Part shown: piece by piece, positions 1-22,727 of the stretch | Layout: each line of letters opens with the position of its first letter | Position numbering within the stretch: the stretch's first letter is position 1 | IMG/VR virus record: IMGVR_UViG_3300037882_002040 | Location: 1 to 38,281 of that record | Source of the DNA: a virus | DNA: 38,281 bases | Strand: one strand, 5' to 3' | Made by a program: the position numbers and the translations under genes | Notes under the pieces: model-generated | Seen by the model: the letters and a program-made list of their open reading frames with translations, nothing else | Told to the model about the DNA's origin: nothing | Database searches by the model: none

Positions 1-1413
1 AATAAACAGCCTATTCGTGCTGGCGATGGACAGGTATTGTCCAATCTCTTTACGATAACTTTGGAGGGAACTCTCCTTCCACAGGCTACGGGCGATACGT
101 TAGGCATTATAGATGTTGATGCGAACCAAGATAGAATTTTAGAAATATTTAAAGATGAGGGAAAATTACTAAGCGTAGAATGCGGCGGGGTAGAGCTAAT
201 AAAGTGTTTTCCACGAGTTAATAGTATAGTTTTTCCTAGAAGTTCAGATAACTGGGCAGTTAGTTCGGATTATACTATTCAGCTTGAGTTTAACGATTAC
301 CCTCCAAGTGGAGCGGGTAATTTCGTATCGGATTTAAGTGAAAGTTGGACCCTAGAACCATTAGACGATAATCATAATTATTGGACGTGGACTTTGCCGG
401 GAGGCACAATAGATTCTGGTCCGTATTTATTTAGACTGACACACGAAGTCTCTGCAGTTGGGCAGCGAGTGTTCGATGAGAACGGTTTAGTTAAAGAGGC
501 GTGGGAACAGGCTAGATTTGAGGTAGTATCACGTCTAGGATATGATTCTACTGTTGTGCAAAGTAGCGGAGTAATTAACTTAGATATTGGGCAGTTTAGT
601 ACGTATAATCATTCTAGGGTACAAAATCATAATGAAGTAGCGGGTTCTTTTAGCGTAACGGAAAATTTCGTAGTATTTGGAACGGGGGATAGTAGTTCGC
701 CCGGTCATGTAATTGAGGATTTTACTATTGAGGTAAGACAGAGTGTTCAGTCTCCATTAATAGGATTCGTTATAAACGGTCTTATTCAGGGGTTAGAGAC
801 CAGAAGTTTTGGGTCTGAGCCGGGCGATTTTACTATTACGGAGACTAAATATGCGGCAGCTTCTGGTGGGTGGGAAACTATCCAGGGAAGAGTATATGAT
901 AGGGTAAGAGCGGTTGCTGAAGATTTTACTGCAAGAACAGTAAATCCGACAGCTTTAAATTTAAGCGTGGGACACAATGTTCCTGCGGGCATTATTTCTT
1001 ATACCTATGAATATAACGATAGGCCAACAACATGTATTGCTGGGGCTTTATGGGAGAGTTTTACTATTACAGACCACGGACAATTAGACCAATTTGCAAG
1101 TCTATTTGTGCTTGGGCGTGCTGCTGGTCCTGTTTTGCAGGACTTATCTACTAAAACAGCGTTTGTTAGAGAACTACATATAGAGGCAATAGTAGATTTA
1201 CCAACAGGTTGCCCAGATACAGCTGCTAATGTTGTTACTTATATTAATCAAAATCCGATTACTGAGGTAGATGTTATTGTAGACGCAATAGAAGATAATT
1301 TAGAAACCTCGTATAATCAGGTCTTTAGGTCTGTTAATACGGCCTCTTGGAGTCCTCAAGAAGGAAGATTTAGTAGAGATGCCCAATGGACATGCTCAAA
1401 TTGCCCAGGCTAA
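1..1413 (+). CDS. Tail/baseplate-type protein, 5' end outside the window
   Basis: The frame is open from base 1 (it reads NKQPIRAGDGQV before the first possible start, a TTG at 37), so the gene most likely begins upstream of the window and at least 470 residues are visible. The sequence is rich in beta-prone, Thr/Ser/Val segments, with phrases such as YRLTHEVSA-type FRLTHEVSAVGQRVFDENG and KEAWEQARFEVVSRLG that I associate with phage tail or baseplate proteins encoded beside the hub gene. It ends in a small cysteine pair (WTCSNCPG). A 31-base gap with an AAGGA site leads into the hub-like gene. The virion role is inferred from sequence style and neighbours; no enzymatic motif is seen. Confidence 0.6.
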   Translation, partial: NKQPIRAGDGQVLSNLFTITLEGTLLPQATGDTLGIIDVDANQDRILEIFKDEGKLLSVECGGVELIKCFPRVNSIVFPRSSDNWAVSSDYTIQLEFNDYPPSGAGNFVSDLSESWTLEPLDDNHNYWTWTLPGGTIDSGPYLFRLTHEVSAVGQRVFDENGLVKEAWEQARFEVVSRLGYDSTVVQSSGVINLDIGQFSTYNHSRVQNHNEVAGSFSVTENFVVFGTGDSSSPGHVIEDFTIEVRQSVQSPLIGFVINGLIQGLETRSFGSEPGDFTITETKYAAASGGWETIQGRVYDRVRAVAEDFTARTVNPTALNLSVGHNVPAGIISYTYEYNDRPTTCIAGALWESFTITDHGQLDQFASLFVLGRAAGPVLQDLSTKTAFVRELHIEAIVDLPTGCPDTAANVVTYINQNPITEVDVIVDAIEDNLETSYNQVFRSVNTASWSPQEGRFSRDAQWTCSNCPG

Positions 1414-1444: not shown

Positions 1445-4400
1445 ATGTCTAATAATTGTTCTCCAGCTAATATTTTTGGACCGTTTGAACATACGCTCTT
1501 TATGGGACTGAGCGTTATGGGATTTACTGCATCTGTAGGATGGAACGAACAGGTTTCTGAATTGACTATTACTTTAGTGAGAGATACTTGTGCGGGAAGT
1601 AAATTTTATTATGACGAATCATTAAATAGAATATCTACAACCGAAATAGACCCAGGACTTCGTAATTGTAATGTTGGTAGTCCGTGTTATTTTAGGGCGG
1701 GAAATTTTGAGTGGACCGGACTTCTTCAATCCTATCAAGAAATAAATAGCGAACAGGGTGTTACATATTCTGTTAAGTTGGTTGGTCCTAATCAAATTTT
1801 AGAGGGTTGTCAATTAATTGTTGGGGATTATGCGGGTTCTGTTTATGACGAATATAATCTTTTTAGCGTGATGGGTTATCTGGAAACCTTCGGGGGGGTA
1901 TGTCCTGAGACGGTCATTAATGGTGCGACTTTTGGAAGTCCAGCGGGAGGCTTTGGTGGTAGTCAAACTAATGAATTCGGAATGCCTGTTAATCGAATTG
2001 CGTTAGGAACTTCTCTGTTAACTAGTAGTATTCCTTTCGTGGCAAATAAATTTTCTCCTTATGGGCGAATAATCTTTAAGGGGGCAAACCCTTCTACACA
2101 TAGTTATGGTAATATAGAGGCCGATTTTTTTGACCCGCGTATTACTATTAATTTTGCTAATCATGATGGTTACTTATCGGAATATTATTTAGACTTGAGT
2201 GAGTTACCAACCGTTCCGGATTATTATAGATTCTCTGCTACTAATATTTCTATTATGGATTTTATTAGTACGGTTTGTAGTGATGCTGGGTCAGATTTTT
2301 ATTTGGAACTTATACCCGTAAAATTTGGCGGTTCTGTTGTTAAGTTTATAAAGCTTAGAACCGTAAGTAGAGCTGCTCAACCTTTGTTAGGTCAAATCTC
2401 TTCTTTTATTGGTAATTCCGTAGGAACTGAAAATACTTCGGTTGGCGTTGAATTAAGAAATGAGAACACTGCTAGCTTTCTTATTGGGGGAAATAAACAA
2501 ACCTTATTTCAAATAGACCAAGATGAGGGTGGAGAAGGGTTAGAGGATGATATAATAGCCCCATTCTTCGGTGTTACACAAGATAATTCTGTTGTACCAG
2601 CATTAAAGGACGATGATGGAAGTATTAAAATAAATGTTAATATTGAGGCATTAAATCAAACCTTACATACTCCGTTAGCGGCGTTATCGGTACACTTAAC
2701 TGAGAATGAGATGAGATGCGCTTTGGCTGGACCGGACGATTGGTTAAGTTATGCGGTTGGAATAGGGACCCATTTAGGAGCTTTACTTCCAATCAAAGGA
2801 GTGTGGGACCCACGACATTTTATCAATGTTTTTAATAATTTAGCTGCAGGAAAGCTACTACCACACGACGTTCCTGGCCTGATTGATGCAGACAGAAAGA
2901 AAGAAGACTTGATAGCAAAAGATATTGACGCTATTTTTAATTTCGTTTTAGGATTTGCTAGAGATTATTATGGTAAGAAATATACGGTTAGACTGCCGTA
3001 TTCGTGCGTTAGTATTGACCAGGAAACCGGTAAACCTATTATGACCGATTTACCATCTGAGGGGGGATGGACAGAAATTTCTACAATTTTAGAGTTGCCG
3101 CATCCTAGTGCTTTAACAGACTTATTTTCTTTAGAAGATGGTAGGGTGGCTCCTATCTTTAAATTTGATACCGCCGAAAGATTCGACGTTTCTAATTTAG
3201 ACGTTCATGATTGGGGTATTATCAACAACAAGTTATATGTAAAGGCTACAATAGACCCAGAGCTATACTGGTTGAATGGTACTACTTTTGTGGGTCCTCG
3301 TGTAGTAATGACTTTACCACAAGCTGTTGGGATAAGACCAGAGGACGCAGACATAAAGAAAGTAGGCGCGGGTCTGGATTTAATGTTAAAGAAGTTGGCA
3401 AATATTGGTGGTGATGCCGTCAGAGATAAGTTAGAAGCTATTGGAAAGAAAGTGGGTAATCAGGAGCTTAATATGGGCGCTGAATATAAAGCTGCCGTAC
3501 CCGATTCTGCTGCCGTTCCTCTTAGAAGTACAATTTCTACTTATGGTCCTTGGTATATATCTGGACCCCCAGGACAAACTAGAATAGAAAAAAATGATTC
3601 ATTAGTTCCTTGGGAATACGGGTCTACTACTACAATGAATACTGCGGCTTCTGCTATTGTGGCAGCCGACATTACCTATCAACAGGTAGGAGAAATGGGT
3701 TCGGTTACAGTTCCTGGTTATCCAACTATACCTCTAGGGGCGGAATTGGGGGCTATTGATGGTGGATTTTTTGGTGGCGGAATCCATTTGATTGAAACCA
3801 GAGATATTACAACTAATGATTTTAGCGAGGAAGGTAACGATATTGTTTATGGTTCTGTTGGATTTGGTGGTTGGACAGGATTATACGGACCTAATGTTAC
3901 AGGAGTTAGCGTAAGTATAGGTTCTGATGGGGCTAAAACCACATATCAAATGAGAACTTTTACTCCTAAAGTGGGTAAATTCGCGAGACAGAACGCTGAA
4001 CGAATTAAAAAAATCGGACGATTAAATTATAATCAACAAAGGCGATTTCGTGGAGCTTTATTAAAACAATTAAAAGGGGGATTTGCTCAGGCAAGATTAG
4101 CTGCCGCAGATGTTCGCGGAGCAGCTATGAAAAATCCTGCTGCTATGGAGAGACATTCTCCTGGAGAAATTTTAGTTGGACAACAGGCGGAATGGACAGG
4201 AACCAATAGAAGACAAAATGTAACCTTATCTAATTTCTTAGAGTTGCCTGCAGAGTTTGGCGATGATTATCGTTATAAGGCCATGATGAGCTTAGATGGT
4301 CTAGTTACTCCTGTTTCTATGGATGGTGATGGTAATCTTCCTCCTTATTGTGTTCCTGTAGGAAGTCAATGTATTCCTCATCAAAGCGTTCAACCCTCTG

Positions 4401-5443
4401 CCCCTGTTGACCAATGGGTTCCAGCAACCATAGCTCAACCATATCTTAACCCCTTAACTAATCCAGCAGGGTTTTCTCGCTCTACGGCTAATGGAACTCA
4501 TATTGGACATGATGTTGAGGTTTTAGCTAGAGGAACCTCTCCTCCTCCGTCGAGTATGGTGATTCCAATAGACCAATATGGGGGAAATGACGGATATGCT
4601 AATGATTATAGATTCGTAGCAATGAAGGGCCCCATTATGCTACAAGCTTGGGGTTACGATTTAGAAGGGAAGCCTGTTCCTAACTTTGCAGATACAGAAG
4701 TAGCAACTAGCGGAGGAGTATTTGCTACAACTAGTTTATGGGATACTTTTTTCCCTGATTGGCTCACTAAACGTCATACGTGGCCTGTAGCTCCGATAGA
4801 TTTAAGATTGGACCGCACAAGAGGGGTTTGGACAATTCCTCAACCTTTTAGGTTTCAACATGCAACTTTAACCTCTTGTTTAACCTCATTAGGTACTGCT
4901 ACCGCAGTTATTAATGCTGGGCCTACTATTTACGGGAGTTCTGGAACAGCTATTCCTCCTGGCTCTCAAACTATTACCATTACAGATAGAAATGGAATTT
5001 GTTTGCCCAACGGAACAATGGTTACCGTTTATTATGATACCTATGATTGTGAATACCATTTACTTGATTGGCCAATGACCGTACAAGAAAGTGGAAATTG
5101 CCCTCCTAATGATAATGGCGTCGGAGCAGTTTTGTGCTTGTCTAGATTGGTTTTGGGTAGTGGTATTATCGGACAAAATCTTGGATGTGGAACCATAGCT
5201 ATACATAGCGATTTAAGAGTTGATGGTCAGGACCACGTATCATGTATTGATTTTGATGTTGACAATTTTACAACAACTAAAAACGGGTGTTGTAGAGATA
5301 TTAAACTAAAAGAACAGGGAGACCCAGCAACAATTGAGTATGTTTGTAATGTAGAATGTACTGGAGGAACTTTAACGGTATATACAGCAACTCTAACCAT
5401 TAATGAATATGGCATTGTTACCGCATCAGGAGCTTGTCAATAA
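1445..5443 (+). CDS. Large baseplate-hub-like tail protein (1332 aa)
   Basis: The ATG at 1445 follows AAGGAATAAAA, a good ribosome binding site. The first 150 residues resemble phage baseplate hub proteins: a beta-rich start (SELTITLVRDTC), then GSPCYFRAGNFEWTGLLQS and VKLVGPNQILEGCQLIVG, followed by an Asp/Tyr-rich stretch. The middle holds a helical, lysine-rich segment near residue 640 and a very basic Arg/Lys segment near residue 860, which may contact DNA or pack in the tail tube. The last 180 residues are cysteine-rich, like the next gene. The stop overlaps the next start (TAATG), so the two are translationally coupled. The hub assignment is an inference from motif style; a general tail protein is the alternative. 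Confidence 0.55.
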   Translation: MSNNCSPANIFGPFEHTLFMGLSVMGFTASVGWNEQVSELTITLVRDTCAGSKFYYDESLNRISTTEIDPGLRNCNVGSPCYFRAGNFEWTGLLQSYQEINSEQGVTYSVKLVGPNQILEGCQLIVGDYAGSVYDEYNLFSVMGYLETFGGVCPETVINGATFGSPAGGFGGSQTNEFGMPVNRIALGTSLLTSSIPFVANKFSPYGRIIFKGANPSTHSYGNIEADFFDPRITINFANHDGYLSEYYLDLSELPTVPDYYRFSATNISIMDFISTVCSDAGSDFYLELIPVKFGGSVVKFIKLRTVSRAAQPLLGQISSFIGNSVGTENTSVGVELRNENTASFLIGGNKQTLFQIDQDEGGEGLEDDIIAPFFGVTQDNSVVPALKDDDGSIKINVNIEALNQTLHTPLAALSVHLTENEMRCALAGPDDWLSYAVGIGTHLGALLPIKGVWDPRHFINVFNNLAAGKLLPHDVPGLIDADRKKEDLIAKDIDAIFNFVLGFARDYYGKKYTVRLPYSCVSIDQETGKPIMTDLPSEGGWTEISTILELPHPSALTDLFSLEDGRVAPIFKFDTAERFDVSNLDVHDWGIINNKLYVKATIDPELYWLNGTTFVGPRVVMTLPQAVGIRPEDADIKKVGAGLDLMLKKLANIGGDAVRDKLEAIGKKVGNQELNMGAEYKAAVPDSAAVPLRSTISTYGPWYISGPPGQTRIEKNDSLVPWEYGSTTTMNTAASAIVAADITYQQVGEMGSVTVPGYPTIPLGAELGAIDGGFFGGGIHLIETRDITTNDFSEEGNDIVYGSVGFGGWTGLYGPNVTGVSVSIGSDGAKTTYQMRTFTPKVGKFARQNAERIKKIGRLNYNQQRRFRGALLKQLKGGFAQARLAAADVRGAAMKNPAAMERHSPGEILVGQQAEWTGTNRRQNVTLSNFLELPAEFGDDYRYKAMMSLDGLVTPVSMDGDGNLPPYCVPVGSQCIPHQSVQPSAPVDQWVPATIAQPYLNPLTNPAGFSRSTANGTHIGHDVEVLARGTSPPPSSMVIPIDQYGGNDGYANDYRFVAMKGPIMLQAWGYDLEGKPVPNFADTEVATSGGVFATTSLWDTFFPDWLTKRHTWPVAPIDLRLDRTRGVWTIPQPFRFQHATLTSCLTSLGTATAVINAGPTIYGSSGTAIPPGSQTITITDRNGICLPNGTMVTVYYDTYDCEYHLLDWPMTVQESGNCPPNDNGVGAVLCLSRLVLGSGIIGQNLGCGTIAIHSDLRVDGQDHVSCIDFDVDNFTTTKNGCCRDIKLKEQGDPATIEYVCNVECTGGTLTVYTATLTINEYGIVTASGACQ

Positions 5444-6405
5444 TGAGTTATACTATAGAAAATTGTGATGTTTGCTGTAGTGGAGATAATTGTCCAGATA
5501 CTTGTGAAACAGGATATTTATGCATTCTTAGTAATTGTAGCGGTTGGCACGAATCGGAAATTATACTGCCTCCTACTACTCCTAATTTAATTTGGAGTAA
5601 TGATAGTATAAACGGAGTACCCTATATCATAGAATGTGATGGGCTTTTGTATAATGGTTATTTTACGGTTGTTAAAGATACTACTCAAGAATGCGCCTTT
5701 TATGTAAATTTGAAAATTGAGGATGAACTTGGACAGTGCAATTTTGGTCCAGTATATTTTACTAACGAGCAATTATCTCCTCAACCATTAAAATTAACCG
5801 CAACATTTCCTATAGACCCTGTGTCGCCCAGTGGAAGTTATGGAGCAGGATGTAATTGTATTTCCAATCTAGGGTGTTCATTAGACCTAACATTCATGTG
5901 CGATTATTGTCATGACGATGTTTTTTCTACTGGTTGCTGCACCGGAGAAAATGTGTGTTCAGTTTTGCTTTTATCTGTCGTTAGTCCAGAATGTCCAGGA
6001 ATGGATTTTGAAATAGAAGTTAGCGGTGGATTTTCTGACCCTGAAAACGGACATTGGAAAACCATAGAGGCAACAGATTATTGTATTCCTGCGGCAGTAT
6101 GTTCTGGTATTAATAGAACTTCAGATTTTTTTGATTGTCCAGACGGTACTATAGCTGGAAATTTTAATGTTTATTGTACTCCTACTGGACATTATATGAG
6201 TTTTCAGTATAATTTTGCTATGGAGAATGATGAAGTACTAGATTTTTGTACATTAATTAGTTACAATGTAGAATTAGAAAAAATTTCATGCAACCAATTT
6301 TTATTGCAGGGTAATGCTCTTATGACAGATACGGCACCACCATGCGAATGTTATAATTCGTGTCCTGTTATTATTACTATTACTGAGGGTAGTGGTTGTA
6401 GATAA
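5443..6405 (+). CDS. Cysteine-rich virion-type protein (320 aa)
   Basis: I chose the ATG at 5443, which overlaps the stop of the upstream gene as TAATG, over an in-frame TTG nine bases earlier. The product has about 29 cysteines in 320 residues, many in CxxC, CC or CxC spacings (ENCDVCCSGDNC near the start, GAGCNCISNLGC and TGCCTGENVC in the middle, CECYNSC at the end). The rest is beta-rich with many Gly, Asn and Thr residues. There is no signal peptide or membrane segment. The C-terminal end of the upstream gene shows the same style, so the two may form one disulfide-bonded or metal-bound tail structure. I do not recognise a family; the structural role is inferred from context. Confidence 0.6.
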   Translation: MSYTIENCDVCCSGDNCPDTCETGYLCILSNCSGWHESEIILPPTTPNLIWSNDSINGVPYIIECDGLLYNGYFTVVKDTTQECAFYVNLKIEDELGQCNFGPVYFTNEQLSPQPLKLTATFPIDPVSPSGSYGAGCNCISNLGCSLDLTFMCDYCHDDVFSTGCCTGENVCSVLLLSVVSPECPGMDFEIEVSGGFSDPENGHWKTIEATDYCIPAAVCSGINRTSDFFDCPDGTIAGNFNVYCTPTGHYMSFQYNFAMENDEVLDFCTLISYNVELEKISCNQFLLQGNALMTDTAPPCECYNSCPVIITITEGSGCR

Positions 6406-6416: not shown

Positions 6417-7745
6417 ATGAATTGCGAATGTGAGTTAGCCGGTTTTTGCTCAAGACATATAGGAACTTCCGCAGAGTATAAAGGAAAGGCTTTGTATGCC
6501 AAATGTCAGGACCAAGACCAATCATATAAACAAATGTGGGATAATCGAGCAGATATTGCTCATGCGAAATATTTACAGAAACCAATGTCAGATTTTGAAT
6601 TATTTAAATATAATAACACGTATATTAAATATCATAAAAATATAGACGTTCATAATTTATTTTATGGCCAAACCTCCCATTATAATCCATCAATTATTAG
6701 ATTCCAGAAAAAAACTATAATGGCCTGGAGAAGTAATCAACACCAATCTAAATTAAAGATTGCTAGTTTAAATAATAATTGGAAAGCCGAATTTGTTAAA
6801 GAACTAAAAATAGATAAGATTTCTGTTGAAGACCCTAAATTATTTATTTTTCAAAAAGAATTATATATATCATATCATGTATTAGACGAATATGGATTTA
6901 ATCAACATTATGGAAAATTAAATGAAAATTTAGATATTGTAGAGGAATATCAAATTCAATATGCAGAAGGAGGTATATATACTAAGAATTGGGCGTTTTT
7001 TCAACATAAGGATGAATTATTTGCCCTAGTTAGTGTGCGGCCCCATGTAGTACTAAAAATTAGGGACGGAATCGTGGAATCTACTATAGAGTTTCCTAAC
7101 GATTTATGCGGCGATAATCTTATGTGTGGGGCTCCACCTGTTTTGTACGAAAATGATTATTATGTTTTTTATAACAAACGAGAAAATAATAAGTCAGTTA
7201 TAGGGGTTTATACTTTTGATGATTCGTTTAAGCCTAAAGAATATATTGATGCTGCGATTTTAGAAGATAAACTGCAAGTAGTAGGGAAAAACACCTATGA
7301 TTCTTTGTTTTGTTCTGGGGCTTTTCATAAAAGAGACCAATGGTTTATTTCGTATGGATATAACTCTAATTGGTGTAATTTAATTGTTTTGGGTAGTCAA
7401 AATATTCGGTCTAATTTAATTAATGTCATAGACTGTGGAACCCCTGTTGGATTACCTCCTACAAATAAGAAAAGTAGGGGGTTCGGAGATACTTTAGCTA
7501 AAGGTCTAGAGGCAGTAGGTATTACTAAAGAAAGATATTCTAAAACCAAACAGATGATTACCGGAAAGAAGAGTAAAGCAGGTTGCACTCCATGCTCTAA
7601 AAGACAAGAGCTGTTAAATAAATTGTTTCCCTACAAACAAGAAGAATCAGAAAAGGACCGCCAAGAACGCAGAAGACTTAAAAGAGAAAAGGCTAATAAA
7701 CAAAGAAAGGGCGAACAGGAAAGCCCCGAATCGCCCTTATTATAA
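6417..7745 (+). CDS. Beta-propeller protein resembling GH130 glycosidase/phosphorylase, with basic Cys tail (442 aa)
   Basis: The ATG follows AAGGAATATTAAA. Residues about 85-350 show repeating propeller-blade signatures: PSIIRFQKKTIMAWRS, VEDPKLFIFQKELYISYHV, a TKNWAFF blade, GAPPVLYENDYYVFYN and FCSGAFHKRDQWFISYG. This pattern is like family 130 beta-mannoside phosphorylases and related five-blade propellers. From about residue 355 a helical tail follows, with AGCTPCSKRQELLNKLFPY and then a long Lys/Arg/Glu-rich end. Similar short Cys plus KRxxLN tails occur at the ends of phage proteins encoded near tail genes. It may bind or cut host surface glycan. Catalytic acids are not confirmed, so activity is uncertain. 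The hairpin at its 3' end closes the rightward transcription unit. Confidence 0.5.
   Translation: MNCECELAGFCSRHIGTSAEYKGKALYAKCQDQDQSYKQMWDNRADIAHAKYLQKPMSDFELFKYNNTYIKYHKNIDVHNLFYGQTSHYNPSIIRFQKKTIMAWRSNQHQSKLKIASLNNNWKAEFVKELKIDKISVEDPKLFIFQKELYISYHVLDEYGFNQHYGKLNENLDIVEEYQIQYAEGGIYTKNWAFFQHKDELFALVSVRPHVVLKIRDGIVESTIEFPNDLCGDNLMCGAPPVLYENDYYVFYNKRENNKSVIGVYTFDDSFKPKEYIDAAILEDKLQVVGKNTYDSLFCSGAFHKRDQWFISYGYNSNWCNLIVLGSQNIRSNLINVIDCGTPVGLPPTNKKSRGFGDTLAKGLEAVGITKERYSKTKQMITGKKSKAGCTPCSKRQELLNKLFPYKQEESEKDRQERRRLKREKANKQRKGEQESPESPLL
7707..7738. terminator. Hairpin between convergent gene sets, probable bidirectional terminator
   Basis: AAGGGCGA (7707-7714) and TCGCCCTT (7731-7738) form a perfect 8-bp stem with a 16-base loop. 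On the - strand the stem is followed by TTTCTTTGTTTATT, a U-rich tract typical of intrinsic termination; on the + strand it is followed by ATTATAATTTCTT, which is weaker. It lies at the end of the last rightward gene and 29 bases from the end of the last leftward gene, exactly where a shared terminator is expected. The stem is inside the coding end of the + strand gene. Confidence 0.6.
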
Positions 7746-7766: not shown

Positions 7767-8156
7767 TTAGTCTTTCTTCACATATTTGTACCAACCGTTA
7801 TACGGTAAGTATCCAAAGTGCTTAGTAGAGTAGTCTTCTTGTTCGCCTCTACTAACCTTTTCGCTTGGAGATAATGAGTCCCACTTACGTTTTGGATATA
7901 GGGCCCCTTTTGGTTTCTTCATACAGCCAAACGCTAATTTAGCTCTACATTTAACGTCTAAGCATAACATCTCATAAAACTTATCTTCGTCGTCGTTAGA
8001 ACGAACTATGAATCTAAGACTTTCTCCGTTACAAACCCCGCACTTATCATGCCCAAAAACCTCTTGACCTCCAGCCAAACCCTCAAATACATCCGTATGA
8101 TTATCGCCCTCTACTTCGATAGATGCTCGTGGACTGACTTGTAATAGAACTTTCAT
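7767..8156 (-). CDS. Small phage zinc-binding-like protein (129 aa)
   Basis: The ATG follows AAAGGTTTTAAAA. The protein starts with a beta strand and an acidic stretch (VEGDNHTDVFEGLAGGQEVFG), followed by a CGVCNGE knuckle and a second cysteine pair (LCLDVKC), which together could bind one zinc. A basic, aromatic tail follows (YPKRKWDSLSP, GYLPYNGWYKYVKKD). I recall similar small proteins encoded beside recombination genes in phages. Here it sits just downstream of a possible single-strand annealing protein, with only the interrupted LAGLIDADG gene between. A role in DNA recombination is an inference from position; no enzyme motif is visible. Confidence 0.5.
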   Translation of the reverse strand: MKVLLQVSPRASIEVEGDNHTDVFEGLAGGQEVFGHDKCGVCNGESLRFIVRSNDDEDKFYEMLCLDVKCRAKLAFGCMKKPKGALYPKRKWDSLSPSEKVSRGEQEDYSTKHFGYLPYNGWYKYVKKD

Positions 8157-11285: not shown

Positions 11286-11732
11286 TTACATTTCTCCTAA
11301 TTGTGTTAGTTGTTTTAAGTTATATTTTTCCATAACTAAGATGGGTTTTTTCCAATTATTTTCAAGTATTTTTGCTTGCTTATCTGAACTAGCTATTAAA
11401 TGTATTTGGGGATGATTATAAAGTCTCTCTATATCTTGAAATCTAAATAATTTATTTTCCCATTCATTATTAGTAATGTATAAAAACTTATTTTTAGCTA
11501 AAGGAAGCCCTATAACCTTTTGAATATGGGTGAGGTTCTCTGTTAAAATATTCCCTCTATGCCCGAAACATTCCATCATTTGAAGAATGGCAAAATTATT
11601 TTTAACTGGCGGTGAAATCCACCCCGTATTGAATACTACTGGTACAATATCCGCGCCTGAACTTAATTCGTTTAAAGACGTAATCAATTCAGTATTATCT
11701 AATTTATCTAAGCAGATTCCTAATTTTTTCAT
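11286..11732 (-). CDS. Unknown protein in the glycan gene cluster (148 aa)
   Basis: The ATG overlaps the upstream stop as ATGA, so it is coupled to the GT-B-like gene before it. The sequence alternates strands and helices (IVPVVFNTGWISPPV, NKFLYITNNEW, IHLIASSDKQAKILENNW), like half of a Rossmann-type fold. The phrase LIASSDKQAKILENNW resembles the end of a nucleotide-sugar-binding half of a GT-B glycosyltransferase. It could be the second lobe of the enzyme encoded just upstream, split into a separate gene. I do not recognise a family, and no catalytic residue can be named. Confidence 0.45.
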   Translation of the reverse strand: MKKLGICLDKLDNTELITSLNELSSGADIVPVVFNTGWISPPVKNNFAILQMMECFGHRGNILTENLTHIQKVIGLPLAKNKFLYITNNEWENKLFRFQDIERLYNHPQIHLIASSDKQAKILENNWKKPILVMEKYNLKQLTQLGEM

Positions 11733-12505
11733 GAAAGTAAATTTCTAATCTTTTCGTCAAATATATTCAATACCAGTTCTTTTTCGTTAGTTAGTCCTAA
11801 TCCTTCAAAAATTTGTCCTATACTTTGAAAATACGTATTAGACGCTACTCTTTCCCTGTTTTGTTTAACTAGACTGGTATATTTTTTAGGGTTCTGCAGT
11901 AAAAATTGACAGATGTGTACAACGTCCTCTACTGTATTATACACCGTCCCGTCCAAACTGTCAAGGTGATTTTTGACCTCATGTAGACATATTTTTCCAT
12001 TCATCCAACCGTCTAATTGCCATCTTTTAGTAATATCTAGCACGAATTTACAAGAAGCTAGAGCGTTTCCATATTCTTTATACGATGTTAAGGCCCCCAA
12101 TTGTAAGGGCGTTCTTAGCAGATTTTGAGCAAACATTTTTACTCTAAACCCCTCTTCAAATAATTTCTCGGCAAACTCCTTGGCTTGAGGAGGTAGACTA
12201 TGGTCTAGTATCACAACATCACATGCATACTTTTCCTCTGCTAATCCCAGTAATTGAACCGGATTGGCAGGAGGAATATAATGTATGGGGGTTTCATGGG
12301 TTAGGCATCTAACTATTTTAAGATTGATTAATTCATCTATAAGAGGTTTACTTTGTGGTTCATATAATATGATATCTGGCGATATTTCGTCGTATAGGTC
12401 AATTAGGGATTTTGCGGGTTGCCATAAAACTACATTATGACCACAATATTGTAGGGTAGCAGCGTAAGGGTGACCTAATTCGCCATGTTCACAGATAATT
12501 TTCAT
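11729..12505 (-). CDS. GT-B-fold, CgeB-like glycosyltransferase-type protein (258 aa)
   Basis: The start overlaps the nucleotidyltransferase stop as ATGA. The N-terminal part has Rossmann strands (MKIICEHGELGHPYAATL, SPDIILYEPQSKPLIDELI). The C-terminal 100 residues resemble the CgeB/glycosyltransferase family 1 end: ASCKFVLDITKRWQLDGWM, an acidic loop, then an EDVVHICQFLLQNPKKY helix and RERVASNTYF, close to the usual HTY near the end of CgeB proteins. The expected GxGxxxxE donor-binding loop is poorly preserved, with NGKICLHEV in its place. It probably transfers a sugar or is a degenerate member. Gene order places it in a glycan-building set with a nucleotidyltransferase. Confidence 0.5.
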   Translation of the reverse strand: MKIICEHGELGHPYAATLQYCGHNVVLWQPAKSLIDLYDEISPDIILYEPQSKPLIDELINLKIVRCLTHETPIHYIPPANPVQLLGLAEEKYACDVVILDHSLPPQAKEFAEKLFEEGFRVKMFAQNLLRTPLQLGALTSYKEYGNALASCKFVLDITKRWQLDGWMNGKICLHEVKNHLDSLDGTVYNTVEDVVHICQFLLQNPKKYTSLVKQNRERVASNTYFQSIGQIFEGLGLTNEKELVLNIFDEKIRNLLS

Positions 12506-13206
12506 ATAATATTCTTAGCTAATTCTATATCTTTAGGATTGTCTACATCAACAATTTTTAAACCTTTAGGCTTATAGCTAATAAAACTTCCGTTTTTATC
12601 TATAATTTCATTAAGGGTCTCGAATCCGTAAAAGTTATATTTATCAGGATTCCAACATATAGATTTTAATAGTTTGAGTTCTTTTCCTTTAAAGAAGGTT
12701 ATTTGAGCCCATTTATTAGGAAGACCATAAAAGATATTTTCGAGTTTATTATCTATAATATTACAACCTACCTCGCTATCTTTCATTGTGCTTTCATCAA
12801 TCAGAACCATAGACCTATCCATAGGTAGTTGTTCTAGCGCTATGTCATTAAAGACTAAATCTCCATAAATTACAATAATATTTTCTGTGGTTGCTGCCCT
12901 AAGCCCTATGCCTAAAGACCTCGTTATATTTGTGGTGTCGAATTTTTCGTTTTCAATATTAATAATCCACTGAGGAGTATTATCCATAATTTTTCTAGCC
13001 TCATATCCTGAGACTAAAATAATTTCTTTAGGGTGTAACATTCGCCCTATAATATCTAACTGTCTAGATAAGATAGTTTGTGCGGGCGTCAATCTTATTA
13101 AAGGTCTCGGTCCATAAGATTTCATCCTATCTCCAGGGCCTGCCCCTAAGATAATGACCGATAATTCTCTCTTAGGAGGAGCATGAATATATGTTACATT
13201 ACGCAT
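12502..13206 (-). CDS. Sugar-phosphate nucleotidyltransferase-like protein (234 aa)
   Basis: The ATG lies inside the end of the upstream gene (13-base overlap). Residues 15-40 hold the N-terminal signature of the NTP transferase family: VIILGAGPGDRMKSYGPRPL, comparable to GxGxRM...PKPL, except that the usual Lys of PKPL is Arg here. Further signs are NITRSLGIGLRAA, then IIVIYGDLVFN, which supplies the metal-binding Asp of the DxD/GDxxF motif. It ends with VDVDNPKDIELAK, the common VDTPEDLE-type end of this family. It would activate a sugar phosphate with an NTP, feeding the nearby glycosyltransferases. The Lys to Arg change could alter or abolish activity. Confidence 0.7.
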   Translation of the reverse strand: MRNVTYIHAPPKRELSVIILGAGPGDRMKSYGPRPLIRLTPAQTILSRQLDIIGRMLHPKEIILVSGYEARKIMDNTPQWIINIENEKFDTTNITRSLGIGLRAATTENIIVIYGDLVFNDIALEQLPMDRSMVLIDESTMKDSEVGCNIIDNKLENIFYGLPNKWAQITFFKGKELKLLKSICWNPDKYNFYGFETLNEIIDKNGSFISYKPKGLKIVDVDNPKDIELAKNII

Positions 13207-13949
13207 GGTACAATGTCTGAGATTATTAAGTCTCCGAAGCCTTCCTCTTGTAGTTTATCTTCTAGGGGTTTTTCAAAATTACCCCCAAAATATTGGTGAC
13301 AGGAAGTATTATATAAATCGTAGTTTTTACCTTTAATAACGGCTCCTCTAATAGAATGCTCTATGATAGTATCTTGCCACGTTAATGCAGCCCCTTTGAT
13401 TAGTTCGTTATTACACTCTACTACTACATACCAAGGACGTTTTGTGCTATCAATAGCCAAATCTATGACAAATCCCCTCGCATAATCCTCTGTCATGAAC
13501 TGAACTTTCCACTCAACCCCCCTATTTTTTAGCAATTTAGACGAGTTAAACTGATTAAGGATTCCGCCCGTATAAACACATACAGTAATATGACTAGGCT
13601 TTATATCTTGACCTAATAGGGAATCTAGAGTTTTGCCTAATTCCTCTCTAGTTGTAGTTTTATTTGTTAAGATGACCCCCATATAATTTAATGTGGTTTC
13701 GCTCTTAACTCGCCCATATATATTTTCTCCTGCTAATTTTACTTTATCCCTCCATTCGGAATTTCGTAAGAAGGGGCAATATCTTCCCTCTATTATAAAA
13801 AACTTCTTACCTGTTTCATCATAGGCTCCTTTAAGAAATTTTTCATATTTTTGAAGTCTATTAAAATGGCAGCCGACTTGTGTATTGTCTTCATAAGTGG
13901 CAAATACGCAACGTCCACAAGACGTGATGATTGGGGGTAATTTATCCAT
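13194..13949 (-). CDS. GT-A-like protein with N-terminal cysteine metal site (251 aa)
   Basis: The N-terminal 70 residues carry TSCGRCVFATYEDNTQVGCH and later GRYCPFLRN, four cysteines in a CxxC...C...C layout able to hold a zinc or an iron-sulfur cluster. From about residue 88 a glycosyltransferase-2-like start follows: YMGVILTNKTTTREELGKT, LLGQDIKPSHITVCVYTGG, then WYVVVECNNELIKGAAL, where a GT-A enzyme would keep its metal-binding acidic residues. It overlaps both neighbours by a few bases. The fusion of a cysteine cluster to a GT-A-like domain is unusual. The enzyme call is tentative, since the DxD is not classical. Confidence 0.45.
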   Translation of the reverse strand: MDKLPPIITSCGRCVFATYEDNTQVGCHFNRLQKYEKFLKGAYDETGKKFFIIEGRYCPFLRNSEWRDKVKLAGENIYGRVKSETTLNYMGVILTNKTTTREELGKTLDSLLGQDIKPSHITVCVYTGGILNQFNSSKLLKNRGVEWKVQFMTEDYARGFVIDLAIDSTKRPWYVVVECNNELIKGAALTWQDTIIEHSIRGAVIKGKNYDLYNTSCHQYFGGNFEKPLEDKLQEEGFGDLIISDIVPCVM

Positions 13950-14361
13950 TTGCGGGAATAGCCCTTATTGGTCGTGTTGCTTTTATATAGTATTTCATGT
14001 CATGGTATTTAATTTCAAGAACTGTAAGTCCTACATTTTTTAGTTTTTCTAGAACTTGCGTAAGGGGTTGTATGCCCATTCGTCCTCCGGCCACCAACAT
14101 ATTAAATTCATCAATAGATAGATTGCCGACTTCATAAGCTTTAATCGCAGAATTAAGGTCGGTTCCTACTAAAGTTAGATTACCGCCATATCTTAGCTTT
14201 TTGACAAGTAAAGGAAAATAGTCATTATTTACATATTCAAGGGTCGAATCTACCAGAATTTCATCACAAATAGAATCTATAATTTTGGGTAGTTCTTTTG
14301 TAGAAACGTTTTGATAGTCTAATACTGTGGGGCCGGACTGTAGAACCAGATTAATTTTCAC
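13942..14361 (-). CDS. Methyltransferase-like fold fragment (139 aa)
   Basis: The start is GTG at 14361 behind GGAGAAATTAA. The protein resembles the second half of a class I SAM-dependent methyltransferase as found in phage genomes: ILVDSTLEYVNNDYFPLLV, LVKKLRYGGNLTLVGTD, then a helix with NMLVAGGRMGIQPLTQVLEK and a final strand pair (GLTVLEIKYHDMKYYIKATR). The glycine-rich SAM-binding motif I is missing, so it may not bind SAM alone, or it may be a non-catalytic relative. It sits between a HAD phosphatase and the GT-A-like gene, overlapping both, which suggests a role in sugar or virion glycan modification. Confidence 0.45.
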   Translation of the reverse strand: MKINLVLQSGPTVLDYQNVSTKELPKIIDSICDEILVDSTLEYVNNDYFPLLVKKLRYGGNLTLVGTDLNSAIKAYEVGNLSIDEFNMLVAGGRMGIQPLTQVLEKLKNVGLTVLEIKYHDMKYYIKATRPIRAIPANG

Positions 14362-14791
14362 TTAATTTCTCCTTAATTTTTTGTAAAACATGTGGACCTA
14401 CTGCATCCCAATTTACGTATGGTCTGCCCTCTAAATTATTCCAATCCCACGCTAATGGGCATCCAGTAGCGTTATCATCTATATATTGTTGAGCATATAC
14501 TTTAGGCGAAGTAGTCCATTCTTTTTGGTCAGGATTTTCGTTAACCCCATAAAATTCTATGCCATGCTTTTTACAGAATTCTACTGCTTCTGTTAGTACG
14601 TCTCTTGGCTTTCCTAACTTTTGTCCCTTATTTCCTAAAACCTGCCCATCACATCTCATAGTCCAAAGAATTAGGTCTGCACCAGCTTCTTGAAATTTCT
14701 TCATCCATTCAAAAGCTCCAGGAACAGGGTCGCCTATTTCTGGGAACTCGTGTTTAGCAATAGTACCATCGAAATCTATACAAATCTTCAT
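14351..14791 (-). CDS. HAD-superfamily phosphatase-like protein (146 aa)
   Basis: The ATG overlaps the preceding stop as TAATG. The HAD signature is clear: DFDGTIA (D7 nucleophile and D9 acid in DxDxT), LILWTMR with motif II Thr, and YIDDNATGCPLAW as the acidic motif IV. At 146 residues with only a small insert after motif I, it is a minimal HAD enzyme similar to the short phage and Bacteroides hydrolases. The substrate is unknown. The operon with sugar genes suggests removal of phosphate from a sugar phosphate or nucleotide. All catalytic residues appear intact. Confidence 0.8.
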   Translation of the reverse strand: MKICIDFDGTIAKHEFPEIGDPVPGAFEWMKKFQEAGADLILWTMRCDGQVLGNKGQKLGKPRDVLTEAVEFCKKHGIEFYGVNENPDQKEWTTSPKVYAQQYIDDNATGCPLAWDWNNLEGRPYVNWDAVGPHVLQKIKEKLSEN

Positions 14792-15207
14792 TATGTGTAT
14801 TTCCTTCTTCCAAATTCGTTATCTTCACATTTCCATGAGTCTGCCCAATATGGTTTGTAGACATCAGGCATAACTTTTAGTAAAATGGGTTGTGGACCTA
14901 AAGATGAATCCCACTGTAAATAACCGTCAAAATCATCAATAAAAATATCTAGACCAAGCTCTTTAATTAGGACGGCTTTTGCCATATTACCATATTTTTC
15001 ATAGTCGGCACAATAAATATCGTCGTGAAATATAAATTCAAAACCATTATCGGCCAGCGTTTTAATTACTTGTTCTTTTGGGTGTTGGTCTGTAATAATA
15101 TATACTCTATCTGGATAGTCTTTATTGATAAAATAGTCCCAAAAAAATCTTTTAAATTGTTCTGGATATTTACTTATTACTCCACCGATATCAAATCCTA
15201 TTTTCAC
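14791..15207 (-). CDS. HAD-like protein with altered first motif (138 aa)
   Basis: The start is GTG at 15207 with AAGGA upstream. It has the HAD layout: GFDIGGVIS as motif I, VYIITDQHPK as motif II, a Lys in the middle, and IFIDDFDGYL as motif IV. The second Asp of motif I (DxD) is Gly, so general acid catalysis is in doubt, although the first Asp is kept. It directly precedes the intact HAD gene, so the pair may be an old duplication in which one copy has changed role. It may bind the same ligand, or hydrolyse it slowly. Confidence 0.65.
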   Translation of the reverse strand: MKIGFDIGGVISKYPEQFKRFFWDYFINKDYPDRVYIITDQHPKEQVIKTLADNGFEFIFHDDIYCADYEKYGNMAKAVLIKELGLDIFIDDFDGYLQWDSSLGPQPILLKVMPDVYKPYWADSWKCEDNEFGRRKYT

Positions 15208-15217
15208 ATCAAAATCC

Positions 15218-15529
15218 TTATGGAAAGTACCAAATATAGTGTTTTTCTTCTGATGAGTCGTCTACATAAATATCTACATAAAAGTTTGTATCTCCCCTTG
15301 ATATAGGACCACACGAATAATAGTTTGGGTCTGGTTGATATTTTTCATATTCCGGTTTTTCTACGAATTCTTCTCTAAGAAAATATTTAATATATCTTTT
15401 ATTCTTAGGAATAATATCTACAAAAAGATTAAATAGGTCTTGCTCGGTTACTGGATAATGTCCTGGCATCCATGAGTATCCTTTGATATCTTTAGTTGTA
15501 GTCTTTACTAATTTAGTTATCTTTTCCAT
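15218..15529 (-). CDS. Unknown small protein (103 aa)
   Basis: I do not recognise this protein. It is acidic and aromatic, with many Tyr and Pro residues (YSWMPGHYPVTEQDL, EKPEYEKYQPDPNYYSCGP) and a strand-like end (FYVDIYVDDSSEEKHYIWYF). It looks like a compact alpha/beta fold with no membrane segment and no catalytic motif. It lies between the HAD pair and a zinc ribbon protein in the leftward operon, with gaps of 3 to 11 bases, so it is surely co-transcribed. Confidence 0.6.
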   Translation of the reverse strand: MEKITKLVKTTTKDIKGYSWMPGHYPVTEQDLFNLFVDIIPKNKRYIKYFLREEFVEKPEYEKYQPDPNYYSCGPISRGDTNFYVDIYVDDSSEEKHYIWYFP

Positions 15530-15532
15530 GTT

Positions 15533-15748
15533 TTATTCTCCGCAATCGCAGTCTCCGGTTCCCATATTAAATCCATAAGCTATTCCGCAGTGGGGACATT
15601 TTGGTGTTCTTTTTTCTTTTTCTATTGCATATTCTTGAGGGGATTTAAATCCATAAAGTCTAGCTTCTTCATCATAAAATTCTTTAGAACCTTGACCAAA
15701 TCTATTCTTTGGGTGTCTATGACCACCTATATATCGTAAATCTTTCAT
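15533..15748 (-). CDS. Small zinc-ribbon-like protein (71 aa)
   Basis: The ATG lies just upstream of the unknown 103-residue gene. The first 40 residues are basic and Gly/Phe-rich (YIGGHRHPKNRFGQGSKEF), and the C-terminus has a CPHCG knuckle followed by CDCGE, a likely single zinc site. Such short zinc proteins are common in phage operons, where they may bind DNA, RNA or a host protein. Nothing in the sequence shows which. Confidence 0.6.
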   Translation of the reverse strand: MKDLRYIGGHRHPKNRFGQGSKEFYDEEARLYGFKSPQEYAIEKEKRTPKCPHCGIAYGFNMGTGDCDCGE

Positions 15749-15750
15749 TT

Positions 15751-16662
15751 TTATCTTTCGTACATTATTTTTGAGCTATTTTCAATTATATTTTTCCAAC
15801 CATCCTGAAACGCTTTATAATCTCCTATTTCCTGTCTAGCCTTCTTACTTACATCGTAGAATTTATCTGTCATCATGGGGTCAATTATCTGTTTGATTTC
15901 ACCAAATGTTTGACATAGAAAGCCGTTTTCCCCATGCTTTATATGAGCAGTAATCTCATCGCTTTTAGCCGAAATAGTAGCACAACCACACGCCATAGCT
16001 TGGAGTGTACTAAAATGTACGTGGGGACCATTCAAATTAATAAAGACTCTTCCATTGTTAAACTGTTCGCAAAGTTCTTGTTCCGTTTTACCATTTAGCA
16101 TGACATATTCATATTCTTTTATTAATTCTTTAAAGAGCATTTCTTGCTGAGGATTTTCTGGCTCTAGAAGGATTATTCTTTGCGGTCTATTTTCGCTAGA
16201 CGTAAATACTTCTTTATCTACGCAATTCTGGCTTATATATCCTACGCCCCCCCACTTTTCTCTAACTATACTAGATGTGTATACTGAGGCGAATCCTGAA
16301 CGTTTTTGTAATGATGGAAAGTTAGGGTGTTGTACTAAGCTATGTGGACCAGAGTGATTTACTATAATAAAGGGACAATGGCTTGCATCCGAAATTCCCT
16401 TAATTAAACCATATTGATTAGTGCGGTCATTAGATATACACACATCAGGATAAAACAGAGGAGATATACCTTTTAATATTTGTATATTATCTGGTTTTGG
16501 GATTGTTAAATTCCAAGCAACCCCCCCAAAGATATATTGCCATGTATCTAATTTACTTAGTTCATAATTAAACCATTGGTCTTCTGCAAAACAAGTAAAA
16601 ATATTAATAGGGCTATTATCTTTTTTTATTATTTTATTTATAATTGTATTAATTGGGTTCAT
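15751..16662 (-). CDS. Glycosyltransferase, GT-B fold, family 4-like (303 aa)
   Basis: The C-terminal half has the family 4 layout: RIILLEPENPQQEMLFKEL, then GRVFINLNGPHVHFSTLQAM (205-223), then ACGCATISAKSDEIT and HIKHGENGFL, the conserved acceptor and nucleotide-sugar-binding region. The usual EGFGxxxLEA Glu is replaced by FSTLQAM, a variation seen in diverged members. The N-terminal half has a Rossmann strand pattern. Its start overlaps the small NUMOD3 ORF by 14 bases, with a third glycosyltransferase beyond it. Substrate is unknown; virion or modified-DNA glycosylation, or host surface change, are all possible. Confidence 0.7.
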   Translation of the reverse strand: MNPINTIINKIIKKDNSPINIFTCFAEDQWFNYELSKLDTWQYIFGGVAWNLTIPKPDNIQILKGISPLFYPDVCISNDRTNQYGLIKGISDASHCPFIIVNHSGPHSLVQHPNFPSLQKRSGFASVYTSSIVREKWGGVGYISQNCVDKEVFTSSENRPQRIILLEPENPQQEMLFKELIKEYEYVMLNGKTEQELCEQFNNGRVFINLNGPHVHFSTLQAMACGCATISAKSDEITAHIKHGENGFLCQTFGEIKQIIDPMMTDKFYDVSKKARQEIGDYKAFQDGWKNIIENSSKIMYER

Positions 16663-16774
16663 GAGAATTTTTAAGAAGTTGTTGTTGTCTTTTTTGTCCC
16701 TCTGACATTTTTTGTCGAGTTTCTACAGAAAGCTTTTTACCAAAATTTGGATTTCCAGCAATTTTCGTTCTCAT
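16649..16774 (-). CDS. Mini-ORF made of one NUMOD3 DNA-binding motif (41 aa)
   Basis: An ATG at 16774 overlaps the upstream glycosyltransferase stop as ATGA. The product begins MRTKIAGNPNFGKKLS and continues VETRQKMSEGQKRQQQ, which is a NUMOD3 motif like those in the GIY-YIG genes of this window (compare SEETRQKMSKASKG). No nuclease domain is attached. It is best read as the tail of a lost GIY-YIG or HNH homing endonuclease, still with a good coupled start, or as a free DNA-binding peptide. It fills the gap between two glycosyltransferase genes. Confidence 0.65.
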   Translation of the reverse strand: MRTKIAGNPNFGKKLSVETRQKMSEGQKRQQQLLKNSHEPN

Positions 16775-17871
16775 AGTAACTTTTCTAGTCTCTTAGCCAT
16801 ATTTTCATAGCTAAACTGTTCAACTAATTGAGAGTTATCCGTCATAGTTTTATCTTGAAAAGACTTAAAAACCAGTCTCATTAAATGTTGTAAATGTTCT
16901 TGAGATGGCTCCCACCATTTTTCTCTGCCTGAATAAATTTCGGGCAAAGGGGTGTCGTCAGTAAAAACCTGTTGTTGACTGCTTTGTATTTTGTAGTGTT
17001 TAACATAAGAAGCAGGGCCAGTGCGGTCCGTAACTATAACCTCTTTACCAAAACCAACCGCGTCTGCCGTGGGACGCGACCAACTCTCACCCCTAGACGG
17101 CATGACTAAACAATGCCCCGTACTATGAAGTCTACATATATCGTTTTCGCTAATTTTTTCTGTAATTACCTGTATATCCTTATATTGTTTAAAGTCCTTA
17201 TACAGACGTAATTTTCCTTTTATTTGTGCTATTAACTCATTACATTTATCTGCACACTCTTTACTTGTTAGTCCCCCTTTAGAAGTTTTTACTACTAAAG
17301 TTACCGGTTCGTCCTTCTTAAATTCCGTTAAGAATGCCCTAAATAGAACGTCTAAACCCTTCCTATGAATCATCTCTCCAATAAAGTAAAATACGCATTT
17401 ATTGGTTTTAAATAGTGGCTCATAACTTTGAGTAAATTTTTCAATATTGATGGGCATTCCTATAACTTTGATAGGAGTTTTTAGACCAGATTCTTTAAGA
17501 TTATTTTCATCTGCCAAAGAGGGTACCCAAACTTCATCCATTAGCGAGAGCTTTTCAATCCAACCACTATAATTTAGTCCGCCAGTCTCAGTATATATCA
17601 AAGCTACATTTTTACCAACATTCCTATTATATATTAGGAGGTCTGGCAATACATTAAATATGGTAACGTCAAATTTTTTACATTTGTTATATTCCCATTC
17701 ATAAAAATCATCGGGCGGAAGTGAAGAACTTCCATTCATATAGATTGGTCTTATAGTTAGATTATTATTTGTTTTGTCTAATGCTCTAATATAATCATGC
17801 GAGGAATCGCCCCAGCCATCGCCTAATTGATGTCGATATGGCCCCAGAAAAAGAATATTAGGTTTACCCAT
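16771..17871 (-). CDS. Glycosyltransferase family 4 protein (366 aa)
   Basis: The ATG overlaps the upstream stop as TAATG. A GT-B enzyme: the N-terminal lobe begins ILFLGPYRHQLGDGWGDSSH, and the C-terminal lobe has FYFIGEMIHRKGLDVLFRAF (161-180), the typical HRKG loop, then LVVKTSKGG and LVMPSRGESWSRPTADAVGF (255-274) followed by a VIVTD strand. The last is the E-x7-E style donor-binding motif, with GESW carrying the first acid and a changed second position. It follows a larger family 4 protein, and the two may act in sequence on one glycan. Acceptor unknown. Confidence 0.8.
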   Translation of the reverse strand: MGKPNILFLGPYRHQLGDGWGDSSHDYIRALDKTNNNLTIRPIYMNGSSSLPPDDFYEWEYNKCKKFDVTIFNVLPDLLIYNRNVGKNVALIYTETGGLNYSGWIEKLSLMDEVWVPSLADENNLKESGLKTPIKVIGMPINIEKFTQSYEPLFKTNKCVFYFIGEMIHRKGLDVLFRAFLTEFKKDEPVTLVVKTSKGGLTSKECADKCNELIAQIKGKLRLYKDFKQYKDIQVITEKISENDICRLHSTGHCLVMPSRGESWSRPTADAVGFGKEVIVTDRTGPASYVKHYKIQSSQQQVFTDDTPLPEIYSGREKWWEPSQEHLQHLMRLVFKSFQDKTMTDNSQLVEQFSYENMAKRLEKLL

Positions 17872-20205: not shown

Positions 20206-20648
20206 GGTCGCTTAATCTTCTTAATAGCCTTCTTATACTGGTTTTTTACTTTATGATACGGAATCTTTAACAGGTCTGCTATTGCTTGAAAAGTATATCC
20301 AGATTCAAACTTGAGTAATAGAATTTTCTTTTCGTCTTCCGTAACACAATCAAATACTGCTAGTAAGTTTACAAAATCACACGAATATTCTTGTTCGTTA
20401 TTAATTAGTTCTTCTGTAACAATTCTGTTTTTCCCTGTATATCTGATTAGTTCGTTAGTAATACACTTATGAGCAAATGTACTAAGTTTCCCCTTGTTTG
20501 GGTCGTGTGACCTTACAGCTTTAAGAAGTCCAATCATTCCCACCTGTACATAATCATCTAGGTCTGATTTTGATGGATAAAACGAACGCGCTATTTTCTG
20601 AACTAGCCCTATATTTTCTTTACAAAGGTCGTTTTCGGTTTTTTGCAT
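20202..20648 (-). CDS. Sigma-70-like transcription factor (148 aa)
   Basis: The ATG overlaps the upstream stop as TAATG. Region 2 is recognisable at residues 13-75: NIGLVQKIARSFYPSKSDLD, then DDYVQVGMIGLLKAVRSHDP and KGKLSTFAHKCITNELIRY, matching the core-binding and -10 recognition helices. Region 4 follows (VTEDEKKILLLKFESGYTFQ, AIADLLKIPYHKVKNQYKKA), the HTH for the -35. It is a minimal, ECF-like sigma, probably replacing host sigma to read phage middle or late promoters. Its place at the end of the replication block, before the glycan cluster, fits a switch between gene classes. Confidence 0.85.
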   Translation of the reverse strand: MQKTENDLCKENIGLVQKIARSFYPSKSDLDDYVQVGMIGLLKAVRSHDPNKGKLSTFAHKCITNELIRYTGKNRIVTEELINNEQEYSCDFVNLLAVFDCVTEDEKKILLLKFESGYTFQAIADLLKIPYHKVKNQYKKAIKKIKRP

Positions 20649-22670: not shown

Positions 22671-22727
22671 TAGTCGTTCCTTAAGTTTAGCAGCGTGAAA
22701 GAACAAACTAATATTACACGGTCTAGG

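Follow-up and report, generated by a model that had tools for sequence, protein, structure and literature searches.

Results

A cysteine-rich gene behind the putative tail hub gene

In this work we analysed the IMG/VR virus record IMGVR_UViG_3300037882_002040, and in particular a gene near its left end (5443-6405, plus strand) that encodes a very cysteine-rich protein. The window, by which we mean the whole record of 38,281 bases (35% G+C), is probably a fragment, since no end repeats are known. Four genes at its left end are read rightward and are the end of a tail module, and nearly all other longer open reading frames (ORFs), including the replication and glycan-related genes, are read leftward. 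The cysteine-rich gene follows the gene for the putative tail hub. Other cysteine-packed proteins, mostly without recognisable likeness, are found in the same place in many distant relatives, which suggests that we are looking at a fast-changing, cross-linked part of the host-binding tail tip.

The original prediction, made from the letters alone, had put the cysteine content at about 29 in 320 residues, or about 9%, and the exact count agrees (29 of 320, 9.1%). The remaining non-overlapping ORFs of at least 80 residues in the window contain 1.86% cysteine overall, with 3.9% in the runner-up, and at 1.86% the binomial chance of at least 29 cysteines in 320 residues is 4.8e-12. Among 2035 distinct ORFs of at least 90 residues in the window plus 193 fetched loci (L111-L303), only 21 reach 9.06% cysteine or more. 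With a pI of 4.05 and 42 acidic against 7 basic residues, the protein is acidic; it has 4 histidines and lacks a membrane-type stretch, with residues counted on a 323-residue form that starts at TTG. The predicted arrangement in CC, CxC (CNC, CEC) and CxxC (CDVC, CDYC) groups is present, each type twice, but these groups cover only part of the 29 cysteines, which are distributed along the whole chain.

The ATG of the gene overlaps the TAA of the hub gene (TAATG), and an AGGAG ribosome site stands ten bases before it. The codon score is +0.224 in the annotated frame and between -0.02 and -0.77 in the remaining five. Because of the overlap, the ribosome site and a codon use that fits only the annotated frame, 5443-6405 is a real gene, and the overlap and AGGAG together point to translational coupling with the hub gene. 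A spurious or decaying ORF, whose cysteines are a by-product of base composition, would be in keeping with the lack of a sequence relative in the collections searched. The codon score that is positive in one frame only, the GC3 of 0.20 with 20 TGT and 9 TGC cysteine codons, the overlapping start with its ribosome site and the recurrence of cysteine-rich genes at this position argue against it, and we consider it extremely improbable.

Table 1. Features of the tail module and the neighbouring anchor gene in the window
Feature	Position	Strand	Description
Dit-like / distal tail protein (putative)	37..1413	+	470 aa, frame open to window edge; by position
Tail hub (putative)	1445..5443	+	1332 aa, 23 Cys; by position; alignments A1, A7
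Cys-rich C-terminal tail of hub	5102..5443	+	8 Cys in 113 aa; ends in cap V-x-C-x-G-G-x-L-x-V
Ribosome site and stop/start overlap	5428..5445	+	AGGAG at 5428-5432, TAATG; sequence read directly
Cys-rich protein	5443..6405	+	ATG ORF, 320 aa, 29 Cys (9.1%)
442-aa protein	6417..7745	+	N-terminal Cys motif CECELAGFCSRH, unmatched middle, C-terminal module GFGDT...CTPCSKR..LNKLFPY
Convergent anchor gene closing the slot	7767..8156	-	CxxC...C...C, conserved; 43-49% identity in five aligned relatives (A2)

The tail module and its lineage

The order of tape measure, Dit-like protein and hub is typical of the tail tip, and it is because of this order that we call the 1332-residue protein a hub. In three of the four relatives tested, the gene that directly precedes the Dit-like and hub genes has a PHROG tape-measure match (L142 1.3e-11, L277 5e-9, L280 1.9e-5), and no such match was found upstream of the hub in L119. 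The 37-1413 product aligns with proteins that relatives encode between tape measure and hub (alignment A6, 20-24% identity) and may be called Dit-like by this position; searches of Pfam and PHROGs up to E 1 gave nothing for it, and a search of PDB sequences gave nothing below E 0.3. Profiles of hub and Dit-like protein found nothing below E 0.1 among PDB sequences. The original prediction had also noticed a cysteine-rich end on the protein encoded upstream, and 8 of the 23 hub cysteines indeed fall within its final 113 residues.

The DnaE polymerase of the window finds 79 viral loci; over the best segment their identity is 34-59%, in most cases near 45%. We searched the hub in the records of 39 of these loci and found it in 35 (E <=0.001). 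Neither the hub nor that of a relative has a match in 50,697 phage records, and the window hub has none in Pfam or PHROGs. DnaE itself has 1331 matches in the phage records; the 15 listed show 27-29% identity over at least 95% of the query, and one match outside these 15 lies in the 60-80% band. Since both hubs lack a phage-record match, the lineage seems to be a broad group that the phage collection does not hold. Contigs of this group reach about 238 kb. Three contigs came up in a scan of genome contigs for the host; they belong to metagenome-assembled genomes that carry the names of three different groups, and for this reason we name no host. A literature search on a possible planctomycete link gave nothing on the subject.

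The slot between hub and anchor gene is rich in cysteine

The hub gene is followed by a variable stretch, at whose end stands a conserved convergent gene for a four-cysteine protein, which we use as an anchor. It has no Pfam match, and its relatives occur in 231 viral stretches in viral_contigs. We refer to the interval between hub and anchor as the slot, and to a slot gene of at least 90 residues as cysteine-rich when it has at least 5% and at least 7 cysteines. The window protein lies in its slot (hub 1445-5443, anchor 7767-8156 on the minus strand) with 29 cysteines in 320 residues. The loci for comparison were fetched by DnaE and hub (L111-L143), by an anchor profile (80 of 231) and by a hub profile (80 of 213), not by cysteine, although both profiles were built from loci whose slots had been seen beforehand.

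Across 103 loci with an anchor and non-identical hubs, 74 of 258 slot genes are cysteine-rich, compared with 2 of 1158 other genes; this set includes the window, drops duplicates only when the hub stretch used was identical, and relies on longest-ORF calls. At least one cysteine-rich slot gene is found in 70 of the 103 loci. A small zinc-ribbon-like type makes up 38 of the 74 and was set apart, which leaves 36 genes in 35 loci, the window included. When the hubs of 148 anchor-bearing loci are clustered at 50% identity, 32 of the 48 clusters have a cysteine-rich slot gene and 21 a non-ribbon one. The position itself, beyond the window protein, is thus cysteine-rich across much of this broad phage group. 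The sequences are diverse: 118 distinct ORFs inside and outside the slot (at least 4.5% and at least 8 cysteines) form 37 sequence clusters, and the window protein is a singleton.

Behind the hub and on its strand, as in the window, a cysteine-rich gene is found in L141 (233 residues, 28 cysteines), L253, L254, L266, L277, L279, L280 and L290. In L112 (208 residues, 25 cysteines), L116, L138 and L142 it lies on the opposite strand, so membership in the tail operon is not universal. This bears on the possibility that the protein is not part of the virion, and is instead an assembly factor or chaperone of the hub fibre, or a host-surface or lysis protein that stands behind the hub gene by chance. 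Fibre chaperones are often encoded behind the fibre gene, and the slots of L138 and L142 hold glycosyltransferase-like genes (read by eye). However, a cysteine-scaffolded protein would be expected to fold poorly as a cytoplasmic chaperone, cysteine-rich regions are also fused into hub chains, and the cysteine-rich proteins group into 37 sequence clusters while hub core and anchor gene remain alignable. A function outside the virion therefore appears unlikely to us.

Two further kinds of protein were seen in the relatives. One is a second type of cysteine-rich slot protein, on the opposite strand beside the anchor (L112, L116, L138, L142, L236, L237, L256, L261, L271, L302), with a short beta-like start and, in 9 of the 10, a CCC group, in the form LxYNGKLLxVxGKLAxxxxCCC. 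The other is a protein of 2200-2800 residues behind the hub in many relatives (L114, L115, L119, L128, L217 and others); among 44 distinct examples, 19 have 49-84 cysteines and 25 have 18-37, and in the three that we examined the cysteines are dense across the last several hundred residues.

The hub cap and a positional family

The tails of the hubs in L224, L253, L266, L310 and L313 carry fibre-like LxFGxGL...C repeats and then a cap motif that is common to the window hub. Cysteines can be very numerous within such tails (86 in L266, 69 in L228, 65 in L233). Fibre-like repeats with a recurring cysteine are present in the hub chains of L266, L228, L233, L310 and L313, with 22 pattern matches in L266, and these tails possibly form a cysteine-laddered fibre shaft. 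A cap profile made from seven hub ends, the window among them and all chosen after their loci had been seen, found further hubs in L277 (2e-14), L280 (8.5e-12), L266 (1.5e-9) and L279 (1.2e-7), with L294 and L290 marginal. A non-ribbon cysteine-rich gene comes next on the same strand behind 10 of the 13 cap hubs that have a gene behind them, compared with 9 of 107 other hubs. The ten divide into 5 of the 7 training hubs, window included, and 5 of the 6 hubs found by the profile, two of which (L277, L280) are close to training members.

Eight of the cysteine-rich proteins (L253, L254, L266, L277, L279, L280, L310, L313; 293-370 residues, 23-34 cysteines) form a family, A5. Cysteine takes 19 of the 28 invariant columns of its alignment, spread over the whole chain, and histidine is invariant nowhere. 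The identity of aligned residues is 88% for cysteine (1296 of 1472) and 27% for all others (3512 of 13118), where alignment scores favour cysteine matches. It seems that in A5 the cysteines hold the proteins together and the remaining sequence drifts. A search in viral_contigs with A3, a profile of six of the eight members, returned seven loci with two new members.

The gene behind the window protein encodes 442 residues and ends in a module (GLGDT...CxCSKR...LNK..PY form) that is also found in small slot genes of relatives. This protein has no match in Pfam, viral_contigs or phage records and one weak PHROG match (E 0.02); its N-terminal cysteine motif was seen by eye in a 151-residue protein of L129. 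The module occurs within three genes behind the cysteine-rich gene in L253, L254, L266, L277, L279 and L280 (phmmer, best E 5.2e-9 to 2.9e-7). With a cap hub in front and the module among the next genes, the window protein is bracketed on both sides as the A5 proteins are; this bracketing was established by profile for six of the eight A5 loci, and the hub ends of L310 and L313 were compared by eye. Descent of the window protein from the A5 family would be a conclusion from position alone.

Searches for relatives and structure

The window protein has no match in Pfam or PHROGs up to E 1 and none among plasmids or PDB sequences, and no relative was found in viral_contigs. The 50,697 phage records gave nothing credible by tblastn, only a chance match at E 4. 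A search of the 39 related viral records also returned nothing, which taken alone is uninformative. The ORFs of loci L001-L143 yielded no relative, among those of L111-L303 the best other phmmer match has E 0.52, and hhalign of the A3 profile with the window protein gives E 0.26, so that similarity does not place it in A5. A search of the phage records with the cysteine-rich protein of L253 was likewise empty, as was one of PDB sequences with the A5 profile up to E 10.

Some candidate features were tried and dropped. An internal repeat of two modules (residues 1-152 and 153-320) is unsupported, at BLASTP E 0.80 with 20 of 200 cysteine-preserving shuffles scoring as high. The best cross-family score, between the first half and L282, is reached by 2 of 200 shuffles; it comes from a set of 23 comparisons with the two halves and is not claimed. 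A C-terminal pattern common to the window protein, L253 and L280 is found in 3 of 2035 genes and 5 of 5000 shuffles; having been defined after looking, it is only a hint.

For L313 a model from 8 sequences is weak (pLDDT 42.5, pTM 0.52) and nearly all beta. Foldseek found nothing below E 0.2 for it in PDB or viral libraries. The best VIA-align hit, with Z 5.9 and an rmsd of 4.9 over 121 residues, was 6ohh_A, a designed barrel; avidins and other proteins score within 1 of it. Such an arrangement is common, and we claim no fold.

Discussion

Proposed role

Gene context supports the assignment of the window protein to the tail tip, because its gene overlaps the hub gene, a tape-measure match lies upstream in three of four relatives, some hub tails are cysteine-rich and cysteine-rich genes recur in the slot. 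These are direct observations, as is the conservation of cysteines in the positional relatives. The original prediction of a disulfide- or metal-tied spike or fibre tip is reasonable and is supported in its tail-tip part, and the ties by disulfides or metal are putative. We propose, with a probability of roughly one half, that 5443-6405 encodes a fast-evolving, cysteine-scaffolded minor tail-tip protein that is disulfide-tied after release and placed at the tip of the hub fibre, facing the host.

Under this proposal the protein would be made together with the hub and would sit at or near the tip of the C-terminal hub fibre, toward the host surface. Its cysteines might pair as disulfides within the protein when the particle reaches oxidising surroundings on release, or already towards the end of assembly, with further bonds perhaps to the cysteine-bearing hub cap. 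If covalent bonds, more than conserved packing, keep the core together, the rest of the sequence could be free to change fast, as would suit a host-binding surface. Presence in the virion, contact with a receptor and a behaviour like that of the positional relatives would all be expected from this proposal. A more far-reaching and rather doubtful version is that, in a phage lineage without known isolates, the whole slot is hypervariable, with a dense cysteine scaffold as its sole lasting property and knottin-like host-contact domains, either unrelated or diverged beyond recognition, alternating in it. Their disulfides, tied to the hub cap, could then act as a redox switch that arms or opens the tip once the particle is released or touches a host surface.

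Having few histidines (4) and few CxxC pairs (2), the window protein mildly fits disulfides better than zinc ribbons, and A5, with 19 invariant cysteines over the whole chain and no invariant histidine, points the same way, although all-cysteine clusters are still compatible with both observations. The CC, CxC and CxxC groups, all present here, commonly serve as metal ligands, and metal binding would leave the tail-tip context the same and require no oxidising compartment. Small zinc-ribbon-like proteins are moreover frequent in the slot (38 of the 74 cysteine-rich genes). A [4Fe-4S] cluster with four cysteines is present in lambda gpL and in its homologues at the tail tip (PMC10721106). On balance we think it improbable that the cysteines of this tail-tip protein serve as metal ligands instead of forming disulfides.

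Several observations weigh against the proposed disulfide-tied tip protein. The bacterial cytoplasm is reducing and pairing must therefore come late. With an odd number of cysteines, at least one must stay unpaired within the chain. Thioredoxin was matched in just 4 of the 39 related records, 3 of them above the cut-off; a search for Erv1/ALR sulfhydryl oxidase gave no match, but the control genomes were also empty, so this search is uninformative. In sequence the window protein shows no similarity to the other cysteine-rich proteins (phmmer, hhalign, shuffled controls), and common descent is for that reason argued from position only. An N-terminal cysteine cluster looked common to these proteins, but only 8 of 38 show it enriched, and it was rejected as a general mark. 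Structure prediction, which had been suggested as a check on the pairing of the cysteines, was run on the single sequence and is uninformative on this point (mean pLDDT 33.6). Among the 103 hub loci, 33 are without a cysteine-rich slot gene, including L224, which has the nearest hub (44%) but holds 29 cysteines in its own hub tail. The downstream module is also unspecific, as it occurs in L228, L233, L278, L296 and others, of which L228, L233 and L296, for example, have no cysteine-rich next gene.

Host-binding parts of phages are usually recognised by fold or sequence, and here the recognition is by composition and position. If the proposed role is true, phages use disulfide scaffolds to keep a fold while its surface changes, and many toxins and defence peptides use disulfide scaffolds as well. 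A simple rule of hub, cysteine-rich gene and convergent anchor would then find host-binding proteins in many uncultivated phages. The finding also bears on how disulfides form in virions after synthesis in a reducing cytoplasm.

Other features of the window

Read by eye, the DnaE polymerase gene (20648-24493, minus strand) looks fractured in the manner of 'fractured genes' that have split inteins: 22728-23624 ends in an apparent N-part of an intein (after ...SQRYAFN), 20648-21787 begins with an apparent C-part (...FYANGIATSN followed by SHAVSYA), and between both parts lies an ORF like a LAGLIDADG endonuclease (21759-22706). A glycan-related gene cluster occupies 11286-19547 on the minus strand, in which 16771-17871 and 17871-19547 match PHROG 2170 and the others were assigned by eye only; residues 276-308 of the 17871-19547 product are weakly zinc-ribbon-like, below the Pfam cut-off.

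Comparison with known systems

Our literature search, which covered the titles and abstract openings listed, found no description of cysteine-rich proteins beside a phage hub, and the texts consulted on Milano, 7-7-1 and lambda gpL contain none of a fast-changing cysteine-rich slot behind the hub. The gene order of the window lineage is common to siphophages, in which tape measure, Dit-like protein and hub are followed by variable host-binding proteins; the difference is that Pfam and PHROGs give no match for the hub, Dit-like and cysteine-rich proteins found here. Zinc ribbons like DUF6171 (ICxxC...CxxCGC...CP..W) share the slot in many relatives, a likeness tested with two proteins, both under the Pfam cut-off. 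They have about 95-210 residues, 6-11 cysteines and one recurring pattern, whereas the window protein lacks the CxxC...CxxCGC core.

Lambda gpL is similar in having cysteines in a tail-tip protein. It holds an Fe-S site with four ligand cysteines in its C-terminal domain at the tail tip (PMC10721106). The window protein differs in having 29 cysteines along the chain, not one C-terminal site of four, and it has no family match, with nothing in Pfam or PHROGs up to E 1 that would point to gpL homology.

The closest precedent is the disulfide-linked virion of Agrobacterium phage Milano. Disulfides there connect tailspike, short fibre, baseplate and sheath, the structural proteins average 2.1% cysteine, and some of the bonds must be reduced for contraction, which in vitro required DTT and guanidine (PMC10811340). 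Phage 7-7-1 has four capsid proteins with 2.58% cysteine in a disulfide network (PMC12796354). These phages resemble our case in the enrichment of structural proteins in cysteine, although here the phage is known only from a virus record of environmental DNA and the structural role is putative. Their disulfides are distributed across sheath, baseplate and capsid, whereas the window has one small protein of 9.1% cysteine, without a recognisable relative, behind a hub that is unmatched in phage records.

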